Origin: Paenibacillus sp. 481
Lineage (GTDB): Bacteria > Bacillota > Bacilli > Paenibacillales > Paenibacillaceae
DNA length: 64,000 bases
Assembly (NCBI RefSeq): GCF_021223605.1
Contig: NZ_CP075175.1
Coordinates: 5,287,501-5,351,500 of the forward strand
Reading direction: 5' to 3'
Shown here: positions 51,612 through 62,572 of the stretch, one piece after another
How the letters are laid out: each line of letters starts with the position of its first letter
How positions within the stretch are numbered: position 1 is the first letter of the stretch
Notes under the pieces: model-generated
What the model was told of the DNA's origin: nothing
Seen by the model: only the letters and a program-made list of their open reading frames with translations
Databases searched by the model: none
Made by a program: the position numbers and the translations under genes

Positions 51612-51620
51612 AACTAGTTT

Positions 51621-51750
51621 CCCCCTTCGATGCCTACGAGGTTAGCTAAGGGTTCGGAAGAAGGTTTCCCTATAATCTTTTTGCAATAGATTAATTCACC
51701 CAAGTGGATCCCCCGTTTCCTGAACAGGAATTCGGCAAAATACAATTTTT
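51621..51750 (-). ncRNA. ydaO/yuaA-type c-di-AMP riboswitch
   Basis: On the minus strand, directly upstream of the NlpC/P60 gene, the conserved blocks of the ydaO motif appear in order: GCCGAATTCCTG, AAACGGGGGATCCA, TTGGGTGAATTAAT, TAGGGAAACCTTC, CCGAACCC, AGCTAACCTCGTAGGC and GAAGGGG. This class binds cyclic di-AMP and turns off genes for cell-wall hydrolases and potassium or osmolyte uptake. The 3' end lies so close to the ribosome site that control could be translational as well as by termination. Confidence 0.9.
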
Positions 51751-59340: not shown

Positions 59341-60810
59341 CTAACTTGAAATTACTGTTGATACCATTTTTTTATCCATAATATTAAACTGCAAATCCGC
59401 TACATGTGTGACGAACTTCTTATCATGTGATACAAATATGATAGTTCCTTCATATGCAGCAATAAACCGTTCTAAGGCTTCAATCGCATGAATATCTAAA
59501 AAATTGGTCGGTTCGTCTAACAATAATATGTTATATTCCCCTAAGAACAACTGACAAAGTTGGAGGCGAATCGCTTCCCCACCACTTAATGATCTCACAC
59601 TTTTTCGTATATCCGAGCCGACGAATTGCATCGAATGTAACACGCCTCGTAAAAATCCTTCCTCATATTCCGAGCGATTTTTTACAAATTCTAGTACCGT
59701 TTCATCACTTGTAAATTGATAGCTCATTTGACGGAAGTAACCTATTTTCGCTTTTGGAGAAAGGGTTACACCTGCACCACTATTCGCAATATGCTGTAGC
59801 AATGTACTTTTACCACTACCATTTGCACCAGTAATGGCTATTTTCTTTCCAAGCGGAAGCTGGAAACTTACTTCATTCAGTAATACGTTATCCTCTACCT
59901 GGAGAGTAAGCCTGTCAGCCATAATTGGAAACTTATTATGCAGCGCCAAAGCTTTTGATTGGCGGAACACCATTTGCTTTTCCGCATGCACAGCTTCAAC
60001 TTCCTGCAGTTTTTCCATTCGCTGTTCAATCGCTTTTGCGGCACGATGCACTGCTTTTTGACTCGTACCTTTAGATTTGGTTTCCACCATACTGTTCGGT
60101 TTGGCCTTTGATTCTCGCTTCGACATGCTCCCTGCTTGCGCGATTTTTTCAGCCCTTTTCATCTTCTCTTGCGCTGCTTTTTCAAGTCGACTCTTTTCTT
60201 TGATGAATTGCTCATGAGCTTGACTCTGTTGTTCACGTTCCAACTGTTTCTGTGCTAAGTATGCGCTGTAATTTCCTGAATAGACGTGTACCTTACCATC
60301 ATGTACTTCCCAAATCGTTGTGACGAGTTCGTCTAGTACAGCACGGTCATGACTAATTAAGATAAGAGCTCCATAGTAATACCATAATTCATCAAGTGAA
60401 AATGAAATACCACCTTGATCCAAGTGTGTTGTCGGCTCATCCATGAGTAATGCTTCGTAATAATGAGTGAACATTTGTGCCAGCTTCAGCTTTGTTTGCT
60501 CTCCGCCACTTAACTGATCAGCATGTTGTGGAACAGCCAATCTTCCGAGTAACGCTGGGTCGGCTTCTTCGGCTGTAGGAGCATCAATTTGCTCAAAATA
60601 ACCATACTCTACGTGACGATGCACTTTCCCACTAGATGGTTGAACAAGACCAGCAAGCAACTTTATTAAGCTACTTTTCCCTGCACCATTTCTTCCGACA
60701 ATACCGATGCGATCCCATTGATGTACAGCTAATCTATCCATTTTTAATACCACTTTATCTAAATAAGTCAATTCCACATTATTAATTTCGAAACTTATTT
60801 GTTCCATCAT
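59341..60810 (-). CDS. ABC-F ribosomal protection ATPase (Vga/Msr/VmlR-like)
   Basis: 489-aa soluble protein with two ATPase domains and no membrane part. Walker A GRNGAGKSSLIKLLAG (about 39-54) and GANGSGKSTLLQHI (about 330-343); signatures LSGGEQTKLKLAQMF and LSGGEAIRLQLCQLFL; Walker B LLMDEPTTHLD and LLLDEPTNFLD. The long basic interdomain linker (about 185-300), which reaches the peptidyl-transferase centre in resistance ABC-F proteins, is present. Overall close to Vga(A)-type proteins that displace lincosamides, streptogramins A or pleuromutilins. GGAGG lies 5 bp before the ATG. The leader carries an attenuator. Confidence 0.92.
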   Translation of the reverse strand: MMEQISFEINNVELTYLDKVVLKMDRLAVHQWDRIGIVGRNGAGKSSLIKLLAGLVQPSSGKVHRHVEYGYFEQIDAPTAEEADPALLGRLAVPQHADQLSGGEQTKLKLAQMFTHYYEALLMDEPTTHLDQGGISFSLDELWYYYGALILISHDRAVLDELVTTIWEVHDGKVHVYSGNYSAYLAQKQLEREQQSQAHEQFIKEKSRLEKAAQEKMKRAEKIAQAGSMSKRESKAKPNSMVETKSKGTSQKAVHRAAKAIEQRMEKLQEVEAVHAEKQMVFRQSKALALHNKFPIMADRLTLQVEDNVLLNEVSFQLPLGKKIAITGANGSGKSTLLQHIANSGAGVTLSPKAKIGYFRQMSYQFTSDETVLEFVKNRSEYEEGFLRGVLHSMQFVGSDIRKSVRSLSGGEAIRLQLCQLFLGEYNILLLDEPTNFLDIHAIEALERFIAAYEGTIIFVSHDKKFVTHVADLQFNIMDKKMVSTVISS

Positions 60811-60815
60811 CGCTA

Positions 60816-60920
60816 CCTCCGAAATGTTGTAATTTCGTATCGATAGCTATAGGATCGATACGAGCTTCTACTTCAAGCTCGTATTAAAAAAATAATAAGG
60901 TCTGCACGGTTACCCCTCCT
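60816..60920 (-). promoter_or_regulatory. Attenuator leader of the ABC-F gene
   Basis: On the minus strand: ribosome site AGGAGGGG (60920-60913), then a seven-codon leader ORF starting with GTG (60907-60884, MQTLLFF). Three hairpins follow in a chain: H1 AAGCTCGTAT / ATACGAGCTT (60858-60884), H2 CGTATCGAT / ATCGATACG (60836-60862) and H3 CGAAAT / ATTTCG (60820-60837). H1 overlaps H2 by 5 bases and H2 overlaps H3 by 2. H3 abuts the GGAGG of the ABC-F gene. A ribosome stalled on the leader would disrupt H1 and let H2 form in place of H3, freeing the start. Confidence 0.65.
60884..60907 (-). CDS. Leader peptide of the ABC-F attenuator, 7 residues
   Basis: GTG CAG ACC TTA TTA TTT TTT TAA, giving MQTLLFF. 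AGGAGGGG lies 5 bp upstream, a stronger ribosome site than most genes here. The stop codon overlaps the first base of hairpin H1. A longer frame from an ATG at 61000 runs in the same frame, but a TATAAT lies immediately before that ATG, so it is probably the promoter -10 and the longer frame is not transcribed. Confidence 0.6.
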   Translation of the reverse strand: MQTLLFF

Positions 60921-61001
60921 ACTACGCCTTCATTCATAGCCAGAACTTCATTTCGAAAAAAGAAGACACCCACTATTAATCCAACGGTCAATTCAATCAT
61001 G

Positions 61002-61030
61002 ATTATACGTGCAAGACGTACTCGTCGAAA
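61002..61030 (-). promoter_or_regulatory. Possible promoter of the ABC-F leader
   Basis: -10 TATAAT (61007-61002) with a weak -35 TTTCGA (61030-61025) and 17-bp spacer on the minus strand; it would start the leader about 85 bases before the leader peptide. Confidence 0.45.
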
Positions 61031-61111
61031 ATACCGAGTGTCGGTTATACAATATGTAATAATATATAAAACTATAATAATATCGCAGCTTCGTCAACAA
61101 AATTTGGGATT

Positions 61112-62572
61112 TTATGATATAAAGAAACATAGATGCCAATAGAACGCCCAAGGAATAAACATCAATCCGGCCCCAAGCGCCAGCGTTTCAATCCCATGTC
61201 GTTGTTGCCCGCCCCTTCTACGAATGGCGACTATTAATGCAATTAACGTGAGAATAACAGTCACTGTAGATATAAGCTGAATGATTAACCATATTAGCGG
61301 GCTTCCGAATAACACGAACCCAATATTCCTCCCGCCATTCATCCAGAATGAGACGAGGTACGTCCAGAAACTAATAATCGAGACGATGGCCGTCAGGCTG
61401 GCCCAACGTGTATACCCATTTACAATCAGCGTCTTGCGCTTTCTGATCTTATTGACTAGCAATGCGATCCATACAGATATGCCACTGATTAGTACAATTG
61501 CCGATACGCCTAAATGAAGCCAATATAAGTCGTACCAATCTATCTTCTTCACCTCTGTGGAGCTTAAACTCATCTGTATAGGAGTCTTTCCTAACGTTTG
61601 AGCTACTGGAGGGTTTCCTGCAACGACTTGCTTGATCCAAGATGTCATAGCTTCCGCGTAGCCCGGATATAACGTTTTTAGGGTGCGAAACCCATTATCA
61701 GAACTATTGTAAATAGGATGATCGGCTCCTTCGATAAATTGTAAGGTGTACAATCGGTTGCCTGAACTCTCAAATGCATCTTTAAAAATTTGCGCACTTT
61801 CCGCAGGCGGCACTTGGCGATCGATGCTGCCCCATATCGCTAAAAAAGGCTGTTGGACTTTTTTCAAGGTCGGAACAGGGTCGTACATATCTGTTTCTGA
61901 CGGAGACAGCGAGAGCATGACACCAGCTCCATTGCGGACCAGCGATTGAATCGCGGAGTGAGCGCTCACTCCTTGATGCCGCAGGCGGTTTTCTAAATTC
62001 CAAGACTGCTGCTGTACCGGAGAAATCCCCGGCCCTCCACTTGTAATTACAAAAGCAATTTCTTTGGATTGTGCCGCTGCTATAGGGGCCACCCATCCAC
62101 CTTCACTGATTCCCCACACGCCGACCTTGCTTTTTATAACGTCCGGCCGTTTTTGTAAAGCTTGTACGCCAGCAATTAAATCTTGCGCCAACAGTTCATA
62201 GGAACGATTCGTTTTGGAGTAACCTTTACTGCGCTTGTTATACAGCAATGTCGCGATTCCCGCGTTAGCGAACACCTCAGCTTCTTTGCGAACCGCTGTT
62301 TGACTCCCGCCACCGCGCTCTGTCGTACCGGAACCATGTGCCAGCACAATGCCAGGATGCATGGCAGCTTGTCCATTTGGAATCAACATCGTGCCGTTAA
62401 TGACTTCTTCAAATGGACCTGTGCCGCTCACAAAAGTAACTTTTTCCTCTCGGAATGGTGCTGAATTAGTAGGTGTTGCATGTGCCCAACCATACGGAAA
62501 CAGCACGAAAGTTAAGGTTACCGCTATAAAAAAATAGATTGCTTTGCGGACAACATTTGCATAGGTATGCAT
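61112..62572 (-). CDS. Exported alpha/beta hydrolase with C-terminal membrane segments
   Basis: 486-aa protein. Signal-like N-terminus (KAIYFFIAVTLTFVLFPYGW), then an acyl-aminoacyl-peptidase-like alpha/beta hydrolase domain at about 40-315: oxyanion LAHGSGTTERGG, nucleophile GVWGISEGGWVAP (Ser about 155), acid IWGSIDRQVPP, His GADHPIYN. The last 150 residues carry four membrane segments (LGVSAIVLISGISVWIALLV; LIWLIIQLISTVTVILTLIA). The active site should face outside. GGGGAACG precedes the ATG. Role unknown; it may be a surface esterase or peptidase. The hydrolase call is firm. Confidence 0.88.
   Translation of the reverse strand: MHTYANVVRKAIYFFIAVTLTFVLFPYGWAHATPTNSAPFREEKVTFVSGTGPFEEVINGTMLIPNGQAAMHPGIVLAHGSGTTERGGGSQTAVRKEAEVFANAGIATLLYNKRSKGYSKTNRSYELLAQDLIAGVQALQKRPDVIKSKVGVWGISEGGWVAPIAAAQSKEIAFVITSGGPGISPVQQQSWNLENRLRHQGVSAHSAIQSLVRNGAGVMLSLSPSETDMYDPVPTLKKVQQPFLAIWGSIDRQVPPAESAQIFKDAFESSGNRLYTLQFIEGADHPIYNSSDNGFRTLKTLYPGYAEAMTSWIKQVVAGNPPVAQTLGKTPIQMSLSSTEVKKIDWYDLYWLHLGVSAIVLISGISVWIALLVNKIRKRKTLIVNGYTRWASLTAIVSIISFWTYLVSFWMNGGRNIGFVLFGSPLIWLIIQLISTVTVILTLIALIVAIRRRGGQQRHGIETLALGAGLMFIPWAFYWHLCFFIS

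Follow-up and report, generated by a model that had tools for sequence, protein, structure and literature searches.

The best explanation for a short minus-strand region of Paenibacillus sp. 481 is a ribosome-mediated translation attenuator of an msr(G)-type macrolide-protection gene, with a probability of about 0.84. The region lies within the window, by which we mean the whole stretch of 64,000 nucleotides that was analysed. The element runs on the minus strand from a leader ribosome site to the start of an ABC-F gene (60920–60807) and is placed between an alpha/beta-hydrolase-like gene (61112–62572; Pfam matches) and the ABC-F gene. Related bacteria have the same arrangement, so a switch by which a drug-stalled ribosome turns the gene on is very probable. 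Our confidence is high in the class of mechanism and moderate in its details.

The leader ORF and its overlapping helices

The leader ORF occupies 60907–60884 on the minus strand and reads GTG-CAG-ACC-TTA-TTA-TTT-TTT-TAA, with a GTG start, a TAA stop at 60886–60884 and the predicted peptide MQTLLFF. Its Shine-Dalgarno (SD) sequence, AGGAGGGG (minus strand, 60920–60913), is strong. An earlier note on this DNA had described a near-perfect ribosome site, a seven-codon ORF for MQTLLFF and three hairpins with overlapping sequence, and all of these were present.

H1 spans 60884–60858 on the minus strand, with arms at 60884–60875 and 60867–60858 that form 10 perfect base pairs, and its 5' arm begins on the last base of the leader stop codon. 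H2, the anti-sequestor, is also a perfect 10-bp hairpin (minus strand, 60863–60835; arms 60863–60854 and 60844–60835) and extends one base further at each end than the 60836–60862 given previously. H3, the inner sequestor helix, has 6 bp (minus strand, 60837–60820; arms 60837–60832 and 60825–60820). The masking of the ABC-F start had been assigned to H3, which is present and forms the inner half of the sequestor only. The missing part was an outer helix, GCUAUC/GGUAGC (minus strand, 60847–60842/60817–60812), within which H3 lies and in which the final two G of the ABC-F SD, GGAGG (minus strand, 60820–60816), are paired. The minimum-energy fold of the window contains this outer helix, and so does the consensus fold computed from 30 sequences. 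H1, H2, H3 and the outer helix share arms, which makes for mutually exclusive helices, one of which sequesters the ABC-F SD. All of their pairs are intact in the window. The fold of the window had a z-score of −2.31, and 4 of 200 shuffles folded as well.

In the proposed mechanism, ribosomes would translate and leave the leader when no drug is present. H1 would then form and hold arm 2, arm 3 would fold onto the ABC-F ribosome site through H3 and the outer helix, and little ABC-F would be made. A drug-stalled ribosome would cover the whole 5' arm of H1, and arm 2 would pair with arm 3 as H2, freeing the ABC-F ribosome site. Opening in vivo may depend on co-transcriptional folding of H2 before arm 4 emerges, or on help from 30S binding.

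Pairing and covariation were counted over 30 distinct arm sets, and changes on both sides of a pair were compared with 1000 shuffles, uncorrected for relatedness. H1 was paired in 296 of 300 cells and had 10 both-side changes against a shuffle mean of 1.81, a count reached by none of the 1000 shuffles. H2 was paired in 298/300 cells, with two both-side-changed cells (reached by 11/1000 shuffles), the outer helix in 180/180 with one (132/1000), and inner H3 in 176/180 with two (42/1000). RNAalifold, run on 30 sequences, kept H1 and the outer helix only, and 1 of 15 pairs was changed on both sides. Covariation was clear in H1 and weak in H2, the outer helix and inner H3. Low variation is expected in H2 and H3 because their arms are shared, and the case for these two hairpins comes more from their conservation than from covariation.

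In 55 of 57 elements the 5' arm of H1 was read with the third base of the stop codon as its first base, the other two having been shifted by hand; since the stop codon served to place the arm, this count depends on the quality of pairing. The covariation rows are without L029, which has an insertion in H1 and H2. In the arm comparison its arms were shifted by hand, one base being skipped for the pairing count, and the resulting single both-side changes at H1 pairs 4–8 were not used. Three decayed upstream copies (L024+2309, L025+2306 and L030+2307), whose arms are read from the next element, were kept in the arm comparison and taken out of the codon, folding, opening-cost and covariation counts.

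Conservation of the leader in homologues

A contig scan for ABC-F homologues gave 32 loci, of which 30 were close (67–85% identity); the other two, L031 and L032 (28% identity), were left out of the homologue count. The record titles name Bacillus-, Sporosarcina- and Paenibacillus-like genera, and one names Arthrobacter. Short ORFs were searched without a motif, requiring 4–15 codons and an SD-like stretch. A leader ending in L-L-F-[F/Y]-stop was found in the window and in 29 of the 30 close homologues. The earlier note had stated that a lack of conservation of the leader and paired arms would speak against an attenuator, and both were kept in 29 of the 30. The leader mostly has the form M-x-x-LLF[FY], with MGSVMLLFF in L017. 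Unrelated ORFs in other frames were also listed at L005, L015 and L016. At L023, no leader was detected within 170 nt by the short-ORF scan or within 300 nt by a loose pattern.

For codon counts, 58 non-redundant elements were gathered with a motif pattern. Since this set was gathered by motif and holds close relatives, the motif-free scan is the fairer test of conservation. Counted back from the stop, codon −4 was Leu in 58/58 elements and codon −3 in 57/58, five different Leu codons being used at each position. Codon −2 was TTT or TTC, giving Phe in all 58, and codon −1 was Phe in 24, Tyr in 32, Leu in 1 and His in 1. The stops were TGA (45) and TAA (13), with TAG in none. The starts were ATG in 49, GTG in 5 and TTG in 4, so that the GTG of the window is an uncommon form (5/58). 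The residue preceding L-L-F is Thr in the window and Phe, Met or Thr in most relatives. With LLF[FY] kept while its codons vary synonymously, the leader is conserved at the level of the peptide, which suggests that the ORF is translated.

Distribution of the element

A covariance model of the element (R1) was searched against three sets of genomes, each count including the genome of the window; these large searches use stricter filters and lose weak matches. In a draw of 398 genomes from the class, 23 had an R1 match. The family gave matches in 35 of 394 genomes. Among 348 genomes drawn from the phylum there were two, the genome of the window and another of its family. An ABC-F homologue with an E-value of 1e-110 or lower was present in 46 genomes of the class draw, and in 27 of these its identity was at least 56%. 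R1 matched in 22 of these 27 and in 0 of the other 19. Among the five without the element, three have, by eye, coding sequence running up to the gene, and two have an upstream terminator region with an ErmDL-like reading frame (also by eye; one is MCFIRLRFPTLNK). The 23rd genome with an R1 match (L063) carries a decayed element, and no ABC-F homologue was seen in the 3.1 kb examined. The element or an msr(G)-like gene also occurs under Arthrobacter (L005) and Stenotrophomonas titles (plasmid matches H47 and H48), which may reflect transfer or contamination.

The 4227 models of Rfam gave no match in the leader, and none up to E 5 in 60600–61200. The only Rfam match in the window was a c-di-AMP riboswitch (RF00379, minus strand, 51616–51747, 81.3 bits). 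In 10 related loci, Rfam gave only BsrG RNA (L016 5086–5355, Aquibacillus) and one sub-threshold match, both 1.1–2.6 kb downstream of the leader.

The ABC-F gene of the Msr family

The gene controlled by the putative attenuator (minus strand, 60807–59341) was called a resistance-type ABC-F gene in the earlier note. Its protein scored 766.5 bits against NCBIfam NF000168 (Msr), above the curated cutoff of 680, and aligned over residues 8–485 of 489 to MsrE of PDB 5ZLU. It is 75.9% identical by tblastn, and 75.4% in a multiple alignment, to Msr(G) of the Macrococcoides canis plasmid pMiCAN82a. The next best match to the protein in its own genome reached 38% identity over part of the protein. A relative's protein is annotated as Msr(G), class macrolide/streptogramin. 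The gene is open at full length and both DEPT-x-x-LD motifs are present. The second ATG (60807) is more likely to be the start than the alternative first ATG (60810), because the homologues begin at its equivalent.

In the interdomain linker (around residues 226–250), the loop tip differs among the window protein, Msr(G) and an MsrD-like protein, and the flanks are conserved. In three Paenibacillus records, a second ABC-F-like stretch of about 27–34% identity lies downstream of the msr homologue (L001 4188–5702, L026 5626–6402 and L027 5660–6436).

Folding model of the stalled ribosome

When codon 7 is in the P site, the ribosome extends about 15–16 bases past the first base of that codon, and by that reach it would cover the 5' arm of H1 exactly. 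PMC9226507 quotes a toeprint at 16.

To model the stall, the bases covered by the ribosome were removed and the free energy needed to open the ABC-F SD region was computed in 58 elements. Without a ribosome, the median opening cost was 9.63 kcal/mol. For a P site lying five to seven codons ahead of the stop it was 10.2–10.4 kcal/mol (57 or 58 elements); at four codons it was 7.1 kcal/mol, and from three codons before the stop onward 3.3–3.7 kcal/mol. In the window, the cost fell from 9.79 to 3.59 kcal/mol on stalling at the last three codons, and a ribosome on the first three leader codons gave no drop. Codon by codon, the model thus gave the predicted dependence on stall position, the cost dropping for late stalls only. 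The stall-dependent drop of the window was reached by 2 of 300 dinucleotide shuffles and its unstalled cost by 12 of 300. The cost was lower when stalled in all 58 elements, and it still amounted to 1.2–9.7 kcal/mol (median 3.35). In the mef rows of the folding and opening-cost models, a decaying mef leader (L083+4609) was left out.

The equilibrium probability that the SD is unpaired was 0.40 in the window both without and with the stall, and its median over the 58 elements went from 0.40 to 0.47. The SD became freer in 47 of 58 elements, and by more than 0.3 in only 3. Equilibrium accessibility was rejected as proof of switching, as it barely changes and the observed value was reached by 108 of 300 mononucleotide shuffles.

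The earlier note had proposed that H2 forms and H3 opens on stalling. The opening cost does fall, but at ViennaRNA equilibrium the closed state stayed favoured, and H2 did not rise above H3 even with H1 blocked. The opening of H3 therefore needs kinetics, 30S binding or different energies. In terms of the model, either H2 would win kinetically before arm 4 is made, or 30S binding would pay the remainder, or the energies may be off by a few kcal/mol. The opening of H3 is the weakest step of the mechanism.

The mef sister element and operon history

Three genomes (G384, G620 and G692) have a second R1 match about 1.3 kb upstream of the first. In the two that were tested, it precedes a gene for which Mef efflux families were the best or second-best NCBIfam models, below their curated cutoffs. 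The mef leader peptides are MMTLLFY or MMMLLFY, with MQFLLFY in L082, and their H1 and H2 arms resemble those of the msr element. The fourth arm is different: five of the six mef elements found have GGTATCGAT, and in five of the six ATCGATAC lies opposite GTATCGAT at the ribosome site of mef. The remaining element, L083, seems decayed, with a broken H1 and a mismatch at the fourth arm.

Upstream of the mef leader, L002 and L003 have a third leader, MTHSMRLRFPTLNQ, with the sequence that PMC10314930 and PMC4335068 quote for the leaders ErmDL and ErmK. Two terminator-like sites come after it in L002. These two operons have three different leader peptides in series, ErmDL-like, mef and msr (L002 763–2402; L003 543–2182). 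The plasmid mef(F)-msr(G) operons L084, L086 and L088 have MTHSMRLRS-type 5' leaders and the msr leader before msr(G). A pattern search found no mef-type leader before mef(F) in these three plasmid operons, and therefore three leaders are not the rule. A terminator-like hairpin with a TTTACTC box recurs upstream of the leader or of mef (L008, L016, L028, L084 and others) and is perhaps the 3' part of a 5' transcription attenuator. Decayed upstream copies of the leader and H1 were observed at L024 2309, L025 2306 and L030 2307, and one is also visible in L010, in Peribacillus records and Bacillus sp. SD075. They are perhaps what remains after mef loss.

Neither a mef gene nor a 5' leader was seen in the window, and the best match to Mef(F) in its own genome was 24% identical. 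The 48 bases before the leader (minus strand, 60921–60968) align at the DNA level with a relic in P. apiarius and with the 3' ends of intact mef genes. No ORF is left in them, and the likeness is clearer in P. apiarius, where TILNRIVALKAK-stop is still readable. The stretch is probably what is left of a mef-type MFS gene at its 3' end, which suggests that the window holds a stripped mef-msr operon. Further upstream lies a 67-bp block (61102–61036) with 77.6% identity to P. apiarius. For three neighbour proteins of the window, the P. apiarius DNA, which covers at most 2.5 kb upstream, gave no match, and the ABC-F control did match. A scan for promoters with spacers of 16–18 only found none on the minus strand. 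A candidate promoter, TTGACG-15-TATAGT (minus strand, 61071–61097), lies within the 67-bp block.

Comparison with known systems

Among the closest known systems is MsrDL-msrD of the Streptococcus mefA/msrD operon. According to PMC10314930, MsrDL (MYLIFM) is a macrolide sensor on which the ribosome stalls under erythromycin or azithromycin, Met6 then occupying the P site and UAA the A site. Replacement of L3 or I4 abolished induction, and F5 is important and clashes with release factors. Both systems have a very short hydrophobic leader, a stop codon by a hairpin and an Msr-family gene, and their parent operons have this leader between mef and msr and a further one at the 5' end. They differ in that a Rho-independent terminator acts in msrD, whereas the window has a chain of SD-sequestering hairpins with an anti-sequestor. 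Furthermore, a UGA stop reduced MsrDL induction (PMC10314930), yet UGA is the commonest stop here, which speaks against strict equivalence.

Counted from the stop, L-I-F-M of MsrDL aligns with L-L-F-F of the window, and L062 has a leader between the two, MWLLFL. For peptides this short, the alignment suggests homology but does not prove it. With [aromatic]-L-[I/L]-F-[M/F/Y]-stop as the MsrDL-type motif, our own reading of MYLIFM, the L-L-F-F-stop of the window fits, the preceding residue is Thr, and the peptide is one residue longer than MsrDL. The MsrD-like protein of L117, with MYLIFM upstream (leader read by eye), is 46.7% identical to the window protein. By analogy with MsrDL, cladinose macrolides are the putative inducers, and the ribosome may arrest at termination in the window leader as well.

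The leader peptide of ermC is longer than that of the window and has another sequence. The ermC translation attenuator resembles the present element in that a ribosome stalled on a leader peptide refolds the RNA and exposes the SD of the gene, which is unrelated to ABC-F (PMC10219788). The vmlR and cplR leaders likewise control ABC-F genes through uORFs, and for vmlR an SD-sequestering stem-loop is predicted besides the terminator. These leaders differ in their terminator logic, in their three-codon uORFs (MIN and MRI) and in their drug classes (PMC9226507, PMC10201436). The mef(F)-msr(G) operon of M. canis pMiCAN82a has an Msr(G) that is 75–76% identical and the same leader before msr(G). Unlike the window, it has mef(F) and an ErmDL-like 5' leader, MTHSMRLRSLSLNK.

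A literature search for the exact leader peptides gave no match, and no description of the element was found in the papers searched. It may have been described before, for instance in Supplementary Fig. 2a of PMC10314930 or in the original report on mef(F)/msr(G) (J. Antimicrob. Chemother. 2021).

Alternative explanations

Control might act on transcription, as in msrD, which is controlled by a terminator (PMC10314930): a stalled ribosome would prevent an intrinsic terminator between leader and gene. A related mef-msr operon (L002) does have two terminator-like sites further upstream. However, no terminator-like site was found on the minus strand of the window between the leader (60907) and the gene, or on the plus strand of L002 at 2300–2700, around its msr leader, and no U-run follows H1, H2 or H3 in the window. 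Transcription attenuation is therefore very unlikely here. The hairpins might also work without a translated leader, through protein- or temperature-controlled SD sequestration, with the short ORF being incidental, and the RNA arms are indeed about as conserved as the leader. Such independence from translation fits poorly with starts that vary among ATG, GTG and TTG and with Leu and Phe codons that vary synonymously while LLF[FY] is kept. Nor does it fit an H1 arm that starts on the leader stop codon, or a leader module found again before mef with a different fourth arm. We regard it as the least probable of the explanations considered.

The two other alternatives share most of the attenuator reading, so that their probabilities overlap with its own. 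The attenuator could work with a lincosamide, streptogramin A or a pleuromutilin as the inducer and with arrest early in the leader, much as lincomycin induces vmlR, with its uORF of three codons (PMC9226507). The gene is of the Msr family, though, and in the model an arrest on the first three codons does not lower the opening cost, which makes such an inducer improbable. The Msr group has been tied to macrolides and streptogramin B (PMC8116656). Because the gene is of the Msr family and the peptide resembles MsrDL, cladinose macrolides are likelier inducers than lincosamides, streptogramin A or pleuromutilins. It is unlikely, if somewhat easier to envisage, that the element worked in an ancestral mef-msr operon and is now unexpressed or uninducible in the window after the loss of mef and the 5' attenuator; for the relatives, this is compatible with the best explanation. 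The loss of mef (best own-genome match to Mef(F), 24% identical), the uncommon GTG start (5/58) and the lack of a minus-strand promoter in the scan with spacers of 16–18 point that way. Against decay, the ABC-F gene is full length with both DEPT-x-x-LD motifs, the pairs of H1, H2, H3 and the outer helix are intact, and the upstream block is partly conserved with P. apiarius, though three neighbour proteins have no match in the P. apiarius DNA, which covers at most 2.5 kb upstream.

Significance

A translation attenuator of an msr(G)-type gene would give a concrete and testable function to a widespread RNA element that has no match in Rfam. If true, the MsrDL-type termination-arrest peptide would be a reusable drug-sensing module that drives translation as well as transcription. 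Tentatively, and with slightly less than even confidence, we propose that MQFLLFF-, MMTLLFY-, MWLLFL- and MYLIFM-type peptides form one family of minimal macrolide sensors that arrest termination. The module would act through a terminator in streptococci, and in other Bacilli through hairpins that sequester the SD. Some operons (L002 and L003) carry three leaders in series, an ErmDL-like leader being followed by putative translation attenuators before mef and msr. The switch would be kinetic, set during RNA synthesis and not at equilibrium. The finding also points to a way in which msr(G) genes on chromosomes and plasmids might remain silent as long as no macrolide is present, and such silence matters when resistance is read from sequence alone.
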